The notes under the pieces are model-generated. The model had not been told where the DNA came from and made no database searches. It saw only the letters and a list, made by a program, of their open reading frames with translations. Positions 21,443 to 61,608 of a stretch of 64,000 nt of DNA are shown piece after piece; within the stretch, counting starts at the first letter, position 1, and each line of letters opens with the position of its first letter. The translations under genes and the position numbers were made by a program. Location of the stretch: assembly GCF_027943255.1 (NCBI RefSeq), contig NC_072896.1, positions 38,590,501 to 38,654,500 on the forward strand, in the 5' to 3' direction. This DNA comes from Anastrepha obliqua (lineage: Eukaryota; Arthropoda; Insecta; Diptera; Tephritidae).

Positions 21443-23510
21443 AATAACAACAATTGATTTTTCGAAAATTCGCAAATTTATTGATAATTTGGTCGTCAAT
21501 ACTCAATGCAAATACCTCAGTAGCAAGTCCAATCTCCTGCATGTCAATTATGGCCTGGCACCGTCGGGGCATACTTTCCACTAGTTTTTCTGCATATTCT
21601 ACCGGAAAATACCTTCAAATTTTCCGAATTTGTCGAGAAAGTTGATCTAAATTACATGGCTTGCATTTGCGAAGCTTCATTTTAATCAGAGTCCACACAT
21701 TTTCTATGGGATTTGCATCCGGTGACTGAGATGGCCAATCTCAAGTGAGATGGCCACTCGCTAAACGCTCGACTCCGATGTTTCGGATCGTTGTCCTCTT
21801 GAAGGATCCAGCTTTAATTTTTCTTGATATATAAGGTTGGCCAAAAAGTCTTGCGGTATTTCCGCAAGCTTGTCTTTGCAAGCGCGTAGTTCTAGTTGTA
21901 TTCGTCACATCGGTTCACGCTAGAGCTTTTTGGAAAGCTGTTTTCACGTGCTAACACGTGTTTGATTAATTGTTGCTTGCTTTTAGTCGTTCGTGAGTTA
22001 TAGCGTCGCAAACATGGAGCAAAATAAAGAGAAAATACGGCATATTTTACAGTACTACTACTATTCAAAAAGAAGCTCGATGCATGGGTGCCACACGACT
22101 TGACGCAAAAAAACATTTTTGCCCGTATGGATGCATGCGAATCGCTTCTGAATCGCAACAAAATCGACCCGTTTTTGAAGCGGATGGTGACTGGCGATGA
22201 AAAGTGGGTCACTTACGACAACGTGAAGCGCAAACGGTCGTGGTCGAAAAGCGGTGAAGCTGCCCAGACGGTGGCCAAGCCTGGATTGACGGCCAGGAAG
22301 GTTCTTCTGTGTGTTTGGTGGGATTGGCAGGGAATCAACCACTATGAGCTGCTCCCCTATGGCCAAACGCTCAATTCGGACCTGTACTGCCCACAACTGG
22401 ACCGCTTGAATGCAGCACTCATGCAGAAGAGGCCATCTTTGGTCAACAGAGGCCGAATTGTCTTCCATCAGGACAACGCCAGGCCACACACATCTTTGGT
22501 GACGCGCCAGAAGCTCCGGGACCTCGGATGGGAGGTTCTTTTGCATCCACCGTATAGTCCGGATCTCGCACCAAGTGATTACCACCTATTTCTGTCCATG
22601 GCGAACGAGCTTGGCAACTTCCGACTGTCCACAAGAGAGTCCTGTGAAAATTGGCTCTCCGAGTTTTTTGACAATAGGGAAGCGAGCTTCTATAAGAGGG
22701 GCATTATGACGTTGGCATCTCGTTGGGAACTCGTCATCGAACAAAACGGCGCATATTTGACTTAAATCGCATTATTATAACCAATTTTATGAACAATTGA
22801 AAATTCAATAAAAATACCGCAAGACTTTTTTGACAACCTTATACCATTGCTTAGCAGATGGCAACGAAGCCTTTTGATATATTTTATTCATTTTTTCGGC
22901 ATTTAAATTCTCGATAAATAAAAACAAAGTACCGAAACCTTTGTTTGAGAAGCACCCCGGAACATGGACCTTGACGGGGTGTTTAACAGTCCGTTGAAGC
23001 ATTCTACTGGTGGAGGTTGTCCAGGCTTGTTTAATGCTCGGAAATGCCCAGAAGGAGGATTCATCAGAAAAAACTACGTTGCTCCAATCGCGGTCCAAGT
23101 TTTCCTTCGCCCATTCCACTTGTTTTTCAACGTGTATTGCAATCGACATTGGTTTTACCAAAGTACTGCGATATTTCAGTTTATTGGCAAGCAAGTGCCT
23201 GCGAATCGTTCCGTAAGATATGTCAACACCTTTTGCTTTCAATTTCACAGCAGCTCCACGTAAAATCAAAGTCGGTTCTTTCGAGAACAATGCGAGCATT
23301 TTTTTGGTCTTTTTTTGAGACTTTGCTTGTACTTCCGCGATCAGGAAAATCATCAAGGTTACCGACCTTTTTATAGCGATTTATCCACCTGCTAACGAGC
23401 TGCTTCGACTTTCCCATATATTTCGCAGCAGCAGTGTGCGTTAATTTGAGTCCTTTTACATGCAAACATAGACCTCAAAGCGAAAGGCGTAACCGGTAGA
23501 TACTCATTTT
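21443..23510 (-). pseudogene. Second Tc1-like DD34E transposase gene, split by a mariner
   Basis: Minus strand from 23506: MSIYRLRLSL, KLTHTAAAKYMGKSKQLVSR (helix-turn-helix), VGNLDDFPDRGSTSKVSKKD, then 23262-22850 with YGTIRRHLLANKLKYRS, VVFSDESSFWAF (first Asp) and AEKMNKIYQKASLPSAKQWY. The mariner at 21834-22840 interrupts here. The frame resumes with LQEDNDPKHRSRAF (second Asp, 21795) and, with errors, SPDANPIENVW (third, Glu) near 21720. Stops and small duplications make it inactive. Confidence 0.8.
21834..22840 (+). pseudogene. DD34D mariner, 1007 bp, N-terminus deleted, C-terminal 225 codons open
   Basis: Inverted ends AAGGTTGKCMAAAAAGTCTT..GCGGTATTT at 21834 and 22840 with TA on both sides. 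The ORF 22088-22765 is uninterrupted: RMVTGDEKWVTYDNVKRKRS (first Asp), VLLCVWWDWQGINHYELLP, IVFHQDNARPHTS (second Asp), HPPYSPDLAPSDYHLF (third Asp; spacing DD34D), ending ASRWELVIEQNGAYLT. The DNA-binding N-terminal half is missing, so the copy cannot be autonomous. It is one of the best-preserved transposase bodies in the window and has inserted into the Tc1-like gene. Confidence 0.9.
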
Positions 23511-47600: not shown

Positions 47601-48575
47601 ATCGATATCGATAGTTCTCATGCAGATAAAAAACAACATCCGATATAAAAAGCTCATTTATTCTTCGATTTATTTGCCTGAATTAGTAATATACTCGTAT
47701 TGTATAAAAATTATAAATTTTCTCACATTTCTCTCAAACTCTAAAGCAAAGTTTTCTACCAACATTCACCACATATCTTTCTATTTTATTTTCTTTGCCT
47801 TTAGTCAGCATGTCCTACATCACGCGACTCACTTTGAGTCACAACAAGATAACCATGATCAGTCCAGGCATAGCTAATTTACTACACTTGGAAATATTGA
47901 ATCTATCCAACAATGGATTACGTGAACTGCCAGTTTCGCTGTCATCAATGCCTAAATTGCGTATCCTGAATGTTTCGCTGAATCGCCTGGACAGCCTGCC
48001 ACGCGGCTTTGGTGCATTTCCCGTACTTGAGGTACTCGACCTCTCCTATAATAACCTCAATGAGAATGCGTTACCCGGTAATTTCTTTATGATTGAAACA
48101 TTGCGGGCTCTTTATTTGGGTGACAATGATTTCGAGCATATTCCTAAGGAGTTGAGAAATTTGAAGAATTTGCAAATACTCGGTTTGCGTGATAATGATC
48201 TGCTTGATTTGCCGCGTGAAATTGGCGAATTGGCTCGTCTACGCGAACTTCATATACAAAACAATCGACTGCAAGTATTACCACCAGAAGTCGGTAATCT
48301 AGACCTACTGGGCAGCAAGTCGGTGATGAAGATGGAGGAGAATCCATGGGTGGTGCCGATACAAGAGCAATATTTGTTGGGCATTAGTCACGTCATTGAA
48401 TATATAAAAACGGAAACGTACAAAATGTGAGTTGCCTTTGTTGTTGGGTTTACAATTTTAATGCTTTTTTTTCTCTCCTTTTTTCAGCCTCTATAATCGC
48501 CATATAAAAAGTGACCGCGGACCACCGCCACCAAAAGCTGATAAGAGCAAGAAAGCGTCGCGTATACGCGCATGA
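41549..48575 (+). CDS. ics: Ras suppressor protein 1 orthologue (icarus), three coding exons
   Basis: Joined exons 41549-41687, 47805-48426 and 48488-48575 encode 282 residues from the first ATG. From the second (41582, MSKAKKVLDEAR) it is 271 residues; that start aligns better with animal RSU1 (human 277 aa) and has an equally good AAAATG context. The protein is a leucine-rich-repeat solenoid of about seven LxxLxLxxN repeats with a basic Pro/Lys tail (PPPPKADKSKKASRIR), as in RSU1. Known role: it binds PINCH in the ILK-PINCH-parvin complex at integrin adhesions and restrains Ras/JNK signalling. Splice sites are consensus (GTAAGT, TTTAG; GTGAGT, TTTTCAG). Intron 1 is 6.1 kb and full of transposons; intron 2 is 61 bp. 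No disabling change was seen. Confidence 0.95.
41688..42430. other. ics intron 1, 5' part without recognised elements
   Basis: Plain AT-rich intron. No exon or transposon end seen before the rosa copy at 42433. Confidence 0.5.
42433..43324 (-). pseudogene. rosa-type DD41D mariner, 892 bp internal-deletion copy in ics intron 1
   Basis: Perfectly placed ends: TA-CAGGGTGGCCCAT at 42431 and ATGGCCCACCCTG-TA at 43326. Minus-strand blocks: MGRYTLEQKYAFQ stub (43210), QKQMHPQRVTVWYGFWSGGI (43050), VNGKCYRDMLNEFLFSKIEE (42960), WFQQDGATCHTAKVTLELLA (42880), WPPRSCDLSPLDYFLWG with frame breaks at 42770, KDKCYANHPETIDALKHEIE and KNWVDRMAYCKANRGSHLND to a stop. The HTH region is deleted. It inserted into a copy of the 610 bp TIR element. 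Confidence 0.85.
43325..43525. repeat. Second copy (inverted) of the unclassified TIR element, one end only
   Basis: Reverse complement of 39951-40160, with the end GACGTTATCACGTCAA at 43502-43517, the CGTGCGTGCAGCCGGC stretch, and the TTGTCGTTCGTTCCGCGCTC stretch. The rosa copy at 42433 cuts it at a TATATATG site; the far end of the element was not found beyond that insertion. Confidence 0.65.
43551..44798 (+). pseudogene. DD34D mariner, 1248 bp, near full length, in ics intron 1
   Basis: TIRs CAGGTCAGTCCATAAGTTCG (43552) and its inverse at 44797, with TA duplications at 43549 and 44799. ORF parts: VFFYKSGKNATTAATEINTV and AQKWFSKFRSGNCDVEVTPR (HTH region, 43759), LVEAEPHLTVDMIAQRLNTS, then a deletion and frame change. 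It resumes with FLNHIVTGDEKWILYNNPVR (first Asp, 44150), IFLSIWWDMAGIVYYE, a frameshift at 44320, and VFFHHDNARPHTARQTLGKL (second), HQPYSPDIAPCDYHLF (third), ending with a stop at 44724. It is one of the best-preserved mariners here, but still inactive. Confidence 0.9.
44799..46045. other. ics intron 1, middle; rosa end fragment at 45150-45206
   Basis: TTTCTTTGAATATCAAAATA at 45164 is the inverse of the sequence at 46058-46080, so 45150-45206 (ending AACCCTTTATA) is probably an isolated rosa TIR. The remainder is A/T-rich; no exon. Confidence 0.45.
46046..47425 (-). pseudogene. rosa-type DD41D mariner, interrupted by a LOA-like insertion
   Basis: N-terminus on the minus strand at 47382: MERYRLKQRIEIIKIQYKNG, LVKKFELLGQVSNVK. 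After the insertion at 46691-47206 it resumes NTIRTRCPRTAENIAVVAER (46685), IPRRSLELGIPT, MHENDPEFHRKIILSDEAHF (first Asp, 46438), NENPRVIVEKPLYTQRVTVW-like, VSGLRYREMINDFLWPELDG and FQQDGATCHTSNET (second Asp, 46100), and stops. The third-Asp region is missing; a deletion joins directly to the TIR at 46046-46080. Confidence 0.8.
46691..47206 (-). pseudogene. LOA-like non-LTR retrotransposon, short 5'-truncated insertion
   Basis: 115 open codons (47187-46840): CQVLCERTKQENSDLSPKTQ, GVMTGHNVCGQHMASMGVVD, CLSCLENDDTVEHFLCSCSA, to a stop. This is the C-terminus only. The tail on the plus strand is TTAGATTAGATTAGATT at 46688. TTCACATTA at 46682-46690 and 47207-47215 is the target duplication in the rosa copy. 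Confidence 0.85.
47426..47640 (-). pseudogene. rosa-type mariner (second TIR type), 5' end fragment
   Basis: MNRLTPEQCFQIMEIYFEQN (47532) and the ATCGATATCGATAACTATGG leader match the copy at 32561-33015. It ends about 160 bp before the ics exon 2 acceptor, without reaching it. Confidence 0.65.
47805..48426 (+). CDS. ics: ics exon 2 (leucine-rich repeats)
   Basis: Acceptor CCTTTAG at 47798-47804. Encodes the LRR solenoid: SYITRLTLSHNKITMISPGI, LEILNLSNNGLRELPVSLSS, LRILNVSLNRLDSLPRGFGA, LEVLDLSYNNLNENALPGNF, LRALYLGDNDFEHIPKELRN, LQILGLRDNDLLDLPREIGE, LRELHIQNNRLQVLPPEVGN, then the cap EENPWVVPIQEQYLLGISHV. Confidence 0.95.
48488..48575 (+). CDS. ics: ics exon 3
   Basis: After a 61 bp intron (GTGAGT..TTTTCAG) it encodes LYNRHIKSDRGPPPPKADKS and KKASRIRA, then TGA. 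The basic tail and the YxRH motif match the RSU1 C-terminus. Confidence 0.9.
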
Positions 48576-58042: not shown

Positions 58043-58630
58043 AGAAAACGAAACTGCTGATGAATTGACCAACCGTGAATCAGCGGTGCCCCCCAAGGGC
58101 CAGAGCCAATAAACTGCAAAGTGTTTTGAGACAAGTCTGAACAGAAAACTGTCAAACTTTCTACTAAAACTTGGAAGGAAGACGCTCGGTTGATGGTCGG
58201 TATTATTACAGGGCACAACCCATGGGGTCAGCAGGTGACCACCATTGGAGTCATTGAGGACTCAGTGTGCCTGCCATGCTTGGAGGAGGCGAATAGCACT
58301 GAGCACTTGCTCTGTGAGTGTCCTGCCTTTGCTAGAGCACGGCTACGAGTTTTGGGTTCCGATGTCATGAGAATGAGTAATATTCGTTCTCTAAAACTGG
58401 TGGATATTTACAGATTTGTCAAAGAATCTGGAAAATAATCCCAGGACTAACTATCTCTATCTCTGTCTCTATTCTTTCCTATCTTTTTCTTTGATACTTT
58501 TTTCCTTCTTTCCTTGACTATCTACCTACTTTCCAGAGCTTTAAATACAATGGGCTTTTTAGCCTGAGTGTTTTAGGAGCCACCAAATCTCCAGGTGCTC
58601 CTTGGCTCGGCCTTTTCAAATTTCAATTTC
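58043..58630 (+). pseudogene. LOA-like non-LTR retrotransposon insertion with 13 bp target duplication
   Basis: AACGTCTAAACTA occurs at 58030-58042 and 58631-58643. Between them ADELTNRESAVPPKGPEPIN begins in the last part of RNase H, and an 82-codon ORF (58190-58438) covers GIITGHNPWGQQVTTIGVIE and CLPCLEEANSTEHLLCECPA to a stop, followed by the 3' UTR. It is 5'-truncated and relatively recent. Confidence 0.85.
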
Positions 58631-58847
58631 AACGTCTAAACTACAACGAATTTCAATATAAAAATATAAAAAGTACATTTTTGAAAGTATAAACTATTAT
58701 AACATAAAAAAAATCGATTTTTTCGAAATTCTAGACCAAAAAGGTGCCTTAAAAAAATGATTTTGAGTGATGCAAATCTTCATTTTGACATTTACCCGCT
58801 GCATTGCTTGTCTCTATAATTGACATAAGATAATTATCTTATCCAAT

Positions 58848-58950
58848 TATAATTGGCGCATACACCTCTGTTAGGTGTTTGGGCGAGCTCCTCCTCCTAT
58901 TTGTGGCGTGCGTCTTGATGTTATTTCACAAATGGTGGGACAAATTTACC
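58848..58950 (-). mobile_element. SINE tail fragment
   Basis: AATTATAATTGGCGCATACA, GGCGAGCTCCTCCTCCTATT and TTTCACAAATGGTGGGAC match the 3' half of the tRNA SINE; the head is missing. Confidence 0.7.
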
Positions 58951-59054
58951 GATAGGGTGATTAATTTTGCGCCACCTTGTGTATGTGCGTTTAAAATTTA
59001 ATTAATTTGAAAAAAAAAACAATACTAGAAAGTATATTTAGACAAAAAGTATAA

Positions 59055-59543
59055 CACTGTGGTACAAAAAAAAAAGTTGCAAAAAAACTTTGGATCGGAC
59101 ATGGTGAGGGTTGTAGCTTATGAAAAACTGAAAATAATGGTATAGTTGAAATTTCCAATACACCCCCAAAATCTCATTTTATGGCCATAAAACCGTTTTT
59201 CAGTAGGTTGATATGAACAATCACTCCTAACTTCGCCAATTTCCATCCGATTTCGAATTTGCTTTTTTAGTTCGAAAGAACAAAAACAAGCCTTTTTGAC
59301 AGTGTGTTAACATTTTTTCTGAAATGACAACTGACGAGACTGTAGACGGAAGTATTTGGAATTTTTTTATTTTTTCTCTATTTTTTCGACTTTGACATAA
59401 TTTTTACGATATTATCCGATATTGAGGATTTTTTTTAGTACACTACTGTTATAGTAAATTTAATTTTACGTCAAATGAGCTATATTTGACTGTAATTGAA
59501 TTAAAATTAATAGAGTTGTGCGAGTTTTAAGATTTTTTGTTTT
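59055..59543 (+). repeat. Left long inverted arm
   Basis: Begins CACTGTGGTAC; contains a palindrome-like TTATGGCCATAA at 59180-59191. Pairs with 60557-61048. Differences cluster at the inner edge (59455-59525). Confidence 0.9.
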
Positions 59544-59839
59544 TTTTTTACTAATTTGGAATGTTGGTATAGCTTACGCTAAATGGGAATAAGGACGTGT
59601 TTTGATGCGTTATTATAGATACGTAATATTTATTGGAGTATATATGAATACATAAGAGTACACTGTACTGCATACAACAGAACTGGTTAGAACTTACGAA
59701 AATATCTGACATATTATAGCACATTTTTTTCAATAGAAATATGGAAAAGCTCCCAAGTGTGCCAAAGTTCACACTGTACATTGATTAACAAAAGAAGTTT
59801 GTTATTATAATTTAACCTTATTAAAACGTCAAAGTTTTA

Positions 59840-60307
59840 TTGTTTGTTTCATTGAAATTCAAAAGATATAAATCAAAACGTTGCCAGAAAAGTCAAATTT
59901 CTCAATATTCTCCGATGATATGGCATCATCAGCCTTATCATAAACCAGATGATTGTTATTTTTGTAAAACGGACGTAAACGGTCATCATTATAAAACTCG
60001 AAAGCACATAAAGTATGCTGATGTTGCAACTGTTAAGAACCCCGTAGTCTTGGACGATATGATTGACTCAACTGCAGGTCATGAACTGAAGGAAGTTCAA
60101 CTCATTGCTGATGATGATCAAACTGATAACAATAAACCTGATGATGAAGAGTACTTTCCGTCTGGTTCTAAGTTTTCAGAACGAGACATTGTATCAAATT
60201 CAGATTTTCAGGATCTTTCTCGTGATTTACTTCTATCGGGAAGACAATCTGAAACGCTCGCTTCTCGATTTAAACAATGGAATTTAGTTGATGACGACTT
60301 CAGATGA
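59840..60307 (+). CDS. Conserved-family protein N-terminus with CYFC motif (function unknown)
   Basis: 155 codons inside the long-TIR element. Residues 39-42 are CYFC in the context PDDCYFCKTDVNG, followed by YKTRKHIKYADVATVKNPV. A run of acidic residues (91-104) precedes FQDLSRDLLLSGRQSETLAS and RFKQWNLV (residues 123-150). From memory, this layout (CYFC block, acidic linker, then a LNDLxRDLxLSKxxAELLxSRLKxxNLL block) is the start of an uncharacterised protein family found in many copies in arthropods and cnidarians. Normal members are several hundred residues longer; here a stop follows the second block, so the ORF is truncated. The Cys pair suggests a zinc site (inference). Confidence 0.6.
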   Translation: MFVSLKFKRYKSKRCQKSQISQYSPMIWHHQPYHKPDDCYFCKTDVNGHHYKTRKHIKYADVATVKNPVVLDDMIDSTAGHELKEVQLIADDDQTDNNKPDDEEYFPSGSKFSERDIVSNSDFQDLSRDLLLSGRQSETLASRFKQWNLVDDDFR

Positions 60308-60556
60308 ATGATGATGATCGAATTCTTACAGAGAAGTATTCAAAACTGATGAAGAGAATGACACATGTACCGTACCATACTAAACTCCAAAGGGCCGTTT
60401 CCAATGCATTTTTAAGTTTGGAACCAGTGCCGTTGTGTACTGCACCGTACCATACCGTACAGTGCTGCACTACACAATACTCCAATAAATATTATGCGTT
60501 TATAATGACACTTGTTATTATTTTCATGCTTCGAAACGCATACCAAATCTCGTAGT

Positions 60557-61048
60557 AAAAAAAGAAAAAATCTTAAAACCCACACAACTCTATTAATTTT
60601 AATTCAATTACAGTCAAATATAGCTCATTCGACGCAAAATTAAATTTGCTATAACAGTAGTGTACTAAAAAAAATCCTCAATATCGGATAATATCGTAAA
60701 AATTATGTCAAAGTCGAAAAAATAGAGAAAAAATAAAAAAATTCCAAATACTTCCGTCTACAGTCTCGTCAGTTGTCATTTCAGAAAAAATGTTAACACA
60801 CTGTCAAAAAGGCTTGTTTTTGTTCTTTCGAACTAAAAAAGCAAATTCGAAATCGGATGGAAATTGGCGAAGTTAGGAGTGATTGTTCATATCAACCTAC
60901 TGAAAAACGGTTTTATGGCCATAAAATGAGATTTTGGGGGTGTATTGGAAATTTCAACTATACCATTATTTTCAGTTTTTCATAAGCTACAACCCTCACC
61001 ATGTCCGATCCAAAGTTTTTTTGCAACTTTTTTTTTTGTACCACAGTG
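60557..61048 (-). repeat. Right long inverted arm
   Basis: Reverse complement of the left arm at about 99% identity by eye. Just inside it, 60367-60470 carries repeated GTACCGTACCATAC-type units. Confidence 0.9.
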
Positions 61049-61051
61049 TAA

Positions 61052-61608
61052 TTACTTTCGATATACATACATACATACATACGAGTATATGCATAGTAAT
61101 TTTTTTCAAACAATTTTTATATTCACATTTTTTTCGTTACTAGTGAGCACACACAAAAAAAACACACACACAAAAAATTTACGTGAAAAATAGAACAGGC
61201 AAAAGTCAACTAACAAATTGAGTAATTTTTATTTTATTTTAACTTTTTGCATAAAACTCGCAAACTTATCCACGATTAAATTATTCTTGTTCAGTTCCTA
61301 TTAATTATCACTTACTATTACATACATACATATTTGTGTATTAAAATACAAAAACAAAAAAACTAAAAATAAACACAATAAAGAAAAATAATATTTTGTA
61401 TGACTTTATGTGCTTTTAAAAATATGTATCTCTTAATTTTTGTATGCTTGCATACAAATCTATTTATTCTAAGCTTAAATATTTAAAATAATGAGGCATT
61501 CACGAAGCGAATTTGAATAAAAATATAATATCTCTTACTTATCTTAGCAAATTATTTAAATATCAGGCGAATGTGTTTTTTGTTTTTGTTTTTTGTAATG
61601 CTGTAATA
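61052..61608. other. No gene; CATA repeat
   Basis: CATACATA repeats at 61062-61082, otherwise A/T-rich. Could be the 5' leader of the candidate exon that follows. Confidence 0.4.

Follow-up and report, generated by a model that had tools for sequence, protein, structure and literature searches.

A stretch of 64,000 bp from the genome of the tephritid Anastrepha obliqua (contig NC_072896.1, positions 38,590,501 to 38,654,500; in the following called the window) contains at 59055-61048 a transposable element of 1,994 bp with long inverted arms. We consider it quite probable that this element arose as a deletion derivative of one lineage of Chapaev3 transposons (lineage A), that its tips were later swapped for those of a second lineage (lineage B), and that it was most likely moved in trans by the lineage-B transposase. 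The most similar group of copies detected in the host genome is among those with the new tips (B tips).

The termini of the element are CACTGTGG and CCACAGTG, with a TAA target-site duplication on each side, exactly as described in an earlier note on this DNA. That note had put the arms at about 490 bp with about five differences (99%). They are indeed near-identical inverted copies, but the comparison gave 8 mismatches in 497 bp (98.4%). None of these mismatches lies in the outer 400 bp; all eight fall within the inner 97 bp (p = 1.7e-6 under an even spread). Weaker inverted homology continues inward to about 59696/60405 with a score of 42, which was reached by none of 2,000 shuffles and by none of 3,000 other 150-mers of the window. 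An open frame of 160 amino acids, from stop to stop, is located between the arms (59825-60304). An Rfam scan of 58500-61600 revealed no match to a structured RNA.

The protein fragment encoded between the arms had been assigned to an uncharacterized "CYFC family". Judged by published features and not by an alignment to Repbase, the element can be classed as a non-autonomous Chapaev3 transposon and the CYFC family as Chapaev3 transposase, since the termini, the duplication with its flanking bases and the transposase motifs all match. According to the accessible parts of the work of Zhang and colleagues, Chapaev3 elements end in 5'-CAC/GTG-3' and are inserted between A and T with a 3-bp duplication of TWA, their transposases (556 aa for Garfield) carry C(2)C, LH and H(4)H motifs, and non-autonomous members derived by internal deletion are included (PMC4079192). 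The 27 copies with both ends readable (see below) all begin with CACTGTGGTA and finish with TACCACAGTG. A 3-bp duplication was found in each of them (25 TWA, one TAT, one TAG), preceded by A in 27/27 and followed by T in 26/27 cases. In full-length relatives both cysteines of C(2)C are kept in 86/86 sequences, the leucine of LH in 88/88 and the three histidines of LH and H(4)H in 86/87, 76/78 and 75/76. The same motifs are present in the lineage-B locus L054; the corresponding region is missing from the window relic. A DDE triad was observed in the relatives only (D259 in 90/90, D313 in 84/86, E512 in 74/75). Furthermore, at the N-terminus, where Chapaev3 transposases have a Chapa zinc-finger domain, the residues C8, C16, C19, C60, C63, H92, C96 and C99 are kept in 89-90 of the 90 rows of A4. 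The DDE core of the CYFC relatives gave a fold match to RAG1/Transib (Foldseek TM-scores of 0.3-0.46 at about 12% sequence identity), which agrees with the grouping of Chapaev3 with Transib and RAG1 in the accessible part of the work of Kapitonov and Koonin (PMC4411706). Pfam contained no model above cut-off for the window frame or for 11 scanned relatives, a sequence search of solved structures gave no match at E <= 1, and a viral fold library none at E <= 0.001. No relative in a viral or prokaryotic carrier was detected in scans of viral contigs and genome contigs or by blastn against phages. Chapaev with a 4-bp duplication was rejected on account of the 3-bp duplication in 27/27 copies and because the bases beside the duplication differ between the flanks. 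The undescribed transposon group considered in the earlier note is ruled out by the duplication, the termini and the motifs, which are those published for Chapaev3 as far as the source was accessible (PMC4079192).

In order to count related copies, the 836-Mb host genome was searched with an arm query that carried the B tip, and the best 40 of 1,645 first-look candidates were scored. All 40, the window copy included, are of the B-tip type and 99-100% identical over positions 1-546; the 41st row is partial. Hence, at least 40 near-identical arms are present, the window arm counted, and the arms are by no means confined to this locus. The proposal of a non-autonomous DNA transposon is borne out by these many near-identical copies. 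Sequences of 28 of the best 40 matches, chosen by similarity, were read; L005 is cut and the other 27 have both ends readable. Their lengths are 1,987-2,000 bp in 24 of the 28 cases, and three copies are shorter (1,855, 1,821 and 936 bp). An inverted duplication made by the assembly, which the earlier note had feared, is excluded by the many copies of similar length, each with its own target duplication. The 936-bp copy (L011, 2322-3257) has B tips and TAA duplications and consists almost of arms alone, a step towards a miniature inverted-repeat transposable element.

The parent of the interior was found with a protein query, for which 138 of 2,372 candidates were scored. The best four rows are full-length lineage-A loci (L049-L052), and the 160-codon frame of the window is visible in 74 of the 138 rows, counted by eye. 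L050 measures 3,240 bp including tips and has 518-bp arms at 97.9%. The arms of L051 (3,131 bp) are less even, and in L049 (2,526 bp) the right arm is truncated. All three are flanked by TAA or TTA duplications; for L052 both ends were not found. The lineage-A transposase gene consists of three exons with two short introns and is damaged in all four copies. Exon 1 is interrupted by a stop in L049, L050 and L051. In addition, L049 has N for the first catalytic D and is truncated at its end, L050 carries a frameshift in exon 2, and L051 has lost one C(2)C cysteine; L052 lacks exon 2. The inner arms and the relic of the window element are collinear with L049-L052 except for two deletions. By this comparison, it is in its interior and inner arms a non-autonomous deletion derivative of lineage A. 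Arms and gene fragment are held in common with the full-length elements; the outermost termini (about 94 bp) are not and match lineage B. Predictions of exon 1 in P0002, P0003, P0005-P0009 and others stop about 20 residues or less past EWRLFIDGS, where L054 has GTAAG; this end point marks a conserved intron position.

Lineage B is represented by L054 (C5:45184701-45189700, minus strand), an element of 3,395 bp with TTA duplications and 542-bp arms at 99.8%. Its gene looks intact, with three open exon frames that contain every motif. Positions 1-90 of the window arm are 93-100% identical to L054, whereas identities to four lineage-A copies, with eight arms in all, are 46-80%. From position 137 inward the identities are reversed, with 44-65% for L054 and 87-100% for lineage A, the exception being the left arm of L064 (68% over 401-497). 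The two lineages have about 17 bp in common, AAATTTCCAATACACCC, and the switch occurs within this sequence. Judging from these alignments, the window element is a chimera with lineage-A interior and inner arms, in which the outer 95 bp or so of both arms are of lineage-B type. The left and right ends of lineage-A tips differ, and those of lineage-B tips are the same. As the earlier note had suspected, the CYFC family is transposon-encoded: full-length genes, damaged in lineage A, lie between inverted arms with duplications (L050, L051, L054). The cognate lineage-A genes share the inner arms of the window element, and another CYFC lineage has its tips.

Copies from before and after the exchange were found side by side. 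Tip types were scored for 59 of the 74 rows with the window frame; the way in which rows outside the arm matches were chosen leaves close B-tip copies underrepresented among them. This yielded 40 A tips, 14 B tips and five unresolved rows. Seven of these rows lie within the best 40 arm matches and are of the B-tip type. Twelve rows outside the best 40 were read fully and bear both deletions in 12/12 cases, eight with A tips and four with B tips (L058 on the right side only). Of another 40 stretches read for their tips alone, 32 have A tips and three have B tips, with five left unresolved. Because A-tip and B-tip copies alike bear both deletions, the exchange was later than both, and since double-deletion copies with A tips still exist, a before-and-after comparison is possible. 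Every readable tip of the partly deleted relatives L033-L048 is an A tip. L034, L037, L043 and L047 were considered as mixed-tip intermediates, but their readable tips proved to be of lineage-A type; no copy with one A and one B tip occurs among the loci read. A tree of the single-copy core was calculated from 36 of 46 aligned rows. In this tree the double-deletion copies fall without exception into a single group (87/88), next to relatives in which one junction is absent or the first junction is unreadable. Nested within this group is a clade (100/99) that holds 16 of the 17 B-tip rows.

Several observations weigh against this reading. The tips of L054 are 97%, not 100%, identical over 118 bp, so that L054 need not be the donor, and a second lineage-B copy, L053, has tips at 91-92% and a broken interior. 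Just one intact-looking lineage-B gene was found among the copies read. The B-tip copy L063 is placed outside the B-tip clade among A-tip rows (81/75, not starred), and no bootstrap tree united all B-tip rows on one branch; a single B-tip clade is not rejected by the approximately unbiased test (p 0.172). Thus, one exchange or two may have taken place, and two exchanges, or a conversion of L063, are possible. The mean core identity of 99.4% among 24 B-tip copies is biased and overstates the uniformity of the family, because the copies were picked by similarity from the best 40 of 1,645 with a tip-carrying query. Outside the best 40, the core was readable in three B-tip copies, which are 96.0-97.7% alike; for seven A-tip copies with both deletions the figure is 94.1-96.9%. 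Among six B-tip copies outside the best 40, three are 96.8-97.7% identical to the window arm; 10 of 52 stretches were long enough for this nearest-neighbour comparison, which served for identities to the window arm alone. Evidence for recency of the B-tip copies is accordingly limited. Finally, the strict ordered pattern of all motifs is satisfied by just 53 of 94 long relatives.

The following course of events can be proposed. A lineage-A element would have lost codons 1-57 of its transposase gene, together with everything past about residue 233, and then multiplied. Later the outer 95 bp or so of both arms would have been replaced by lineage-B tips, with an exchange inside the shared stretch of about 17 bp and the same junction in both arms. 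Since both ends agree in their B tip and in the position of the junction, one arm was probably converted and the second arm copied from the first. Copying between arms fits the observation that the arms of L054, and of L050 from about position 120 inward, are near-identical to about 500 bp and diverge further in, which is not so for L051. Conversion or template switching during break repair may account for the exchange itself. An element with B tips should be read by the lineage-B transposase, and this change of transposase might be the cause of its spread and of the many near-identical copies. On balance we favor the view, with less assurance than the sequence of events itself, that a tip swap of about 100 bp sufficed to shift a non-autonomous family from a dead to a live transposase lineage, and that copies from both sides of the swap persist in the genome together with the likely helper.

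An exchange that was real but irrelevant to mobility is the most serious alternative, although we regard it as rather unlikely. A-tip and B-tip copies alike would then be moved by an intact lineage-A transposase that escaped detection, or by whichever Chapaev3 transposase the genome offers. In its favor, many A-tip copies have valid duplications, exons 2 and 3 are 71% and 68% identical between lineages A and B, only four full-length lineage-A copies were read, and the three B-tip copies outside the best 40 are barely more alike than A-tip copies. It is opposed by the contrast between the best 40 arm matches, all B-tip and 99-100% identical, and seven A-tip copies at 94-97%, a contrast that is itself affected by the B-tip query. 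A reversed direction, with original B tips and derived A-tip double-deletion copies, would suit the position of L063, but appears very improbable in view of the A tips of the full-length lineage-A copies and of L033-L048 and of the nesting of the 16-row B-tip clade. It is equally hard to credit that the long arms were retained for a hairpin, from which read-through transcripts would give long double-stranded RNA and small-RNA silencing of Chapaev3. Near-perfect 497-bp arms around a transposase fragment would pair if transcribed across, but long near-identical arms are also borne by the full-length L050 and L054 and thus represent a transposon feature. Strongly disfavored, and the least probable of all, is a plain lineage-A deletion derivative with merely drifted tips, no exchange and movement by lineage-A transposase: interior and inner arms are lineage A, and A and B tips are distantly related, as their common CAC[TG]GTG start and a poly-A run at one of the two A ends indicate, but the tip identities reverse at one place and the genes of 4/4 full-length lineage-A copies read are damaged.

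Table 1. Features of the element and its immediate flanks (window coordinates).
Feature	Position	Strand	Basis or remark
Left target-site duplication TAA, A before	59052-59054		3-bp duplication in 27/27 readable copies
Left arm (terminal inverted repeat), 497 bp	59055-59551	+	Inverted-arm comparison
Left outer tip, lineage-B type	59055-59148	+	Positions 1-90: 93-100% to L054, 46-80% to 8 lineage-A arms (4 copies)
Left switch stretch, about 17 bp, common to lineages A and B	59149-59165	+	Alignment
Inner left arm, lineage-A type; weak inverted homology past 59551	59166-59696	+	Arm comparisons
First deletion junction; about 175 bp including transposase codons 1-57 gone relative to L049-L051	59845-59848
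Transposase exon 1 relic, residues 58-210	59846-60304	+	92% identity to lineage A (L049), 49% to lineage B (L054)
Same exon resumed in a different frame after TGA (YREVFKTDEEND)	60327-60362	+
Second deletion junction; remainder of exon 1 and exons 2 and 3 gone	60363-60365
Inner extension of right arm, low-identity alignment with 59552-59696	60405-60551	-
Right arm, 497 bp	60552-61048	-	Inverted-arm comparison
Right switch stretch	60938-60954	-	Mirrors 59149-59165; outer 400 bp of arms identical
Right outer tip, lineage-B type	60955-61048	-
Right target-site duplication TAA, T after	61049-61051

A third CYFC lineage with inverted arms was observed in L055 and L056 (45-46% to P0002). L055 has a further tip type, CACTGTGCTAC, of which only the left end was found. 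Therefore, at least three Chapaev3 lineages exist in the host genome. Elsewhere in the window, elements had been described as decayed, which is true in part. A mariner-like element at 21830-22843, with 32-nt ends matching at 94% and a transposase frame of 245 codons (PF01359, E 1.8e-23), looks younger. The frame at 47717-48427 encodes leucine-rich repeats (LRR_8, E 2e-21) and is probably an exon of a host gene; it resembles Rsu1.

Transib elements produce a 5-bp target duplication, in contrast to the 3-bp TWA duplication observed here. With Merrow, Garfield and Conan, as far as the accessible text describes these Chapaev3 elements, the A. obliqua elements share CAC/GTG ends, insertion between A and T with duplication of TWA, the DDE triad along with the C(2)C, LH and H(4)H motifs, a similar transposase size (556 aa for Garfield, 559 aa for P0104), deletion-derived non-autonomous members and a split gene, with two exons in Merrow and Garfield (PMC4079192). 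They are set apart by the three exons of lineages A and B, by an arm length of about 500 bp and by outer tips swapped between lineages. The previously uncharacterized CYFC proteins are now tied to Chapaev3 transposases with a RAG1/Transib-like core. A literature search, with most subscription journals outside its coverage, found no study of Chapaev3 in tephritids and none of tip exchange in Chapaev3. The element offers a before-and-after case for how non-autonomous transposons outlive their own transposase and, if our interpretation is true, a natural experiment in transposon "re-targeting" that would define the DNA read by a Chapaev3 transposase. A precedent for tip exchange is Galileo, a member of the P superfamily. 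In Drosophila mojavensis, according to the accessible part of the work of Marzo and colleagues, chimeras of this element carry both terminal repeats of one subfamily and the interior of another and were suggested to be able to found new subfamilies and bursts (PMC3573991). Long terminal repeats and chimeric copies are thus common to both systems; the 7-bp duplication and the superfamily of Galileo are different. A further difference is that in A. obliqua copies with the old and with the new tips share one genome with a donor lineage that looks intact. With donor lineage, recipient lineage and product side by side in its genome, A. obliqua allows a test of the kind of tip exchange that was put forward for Galileo.
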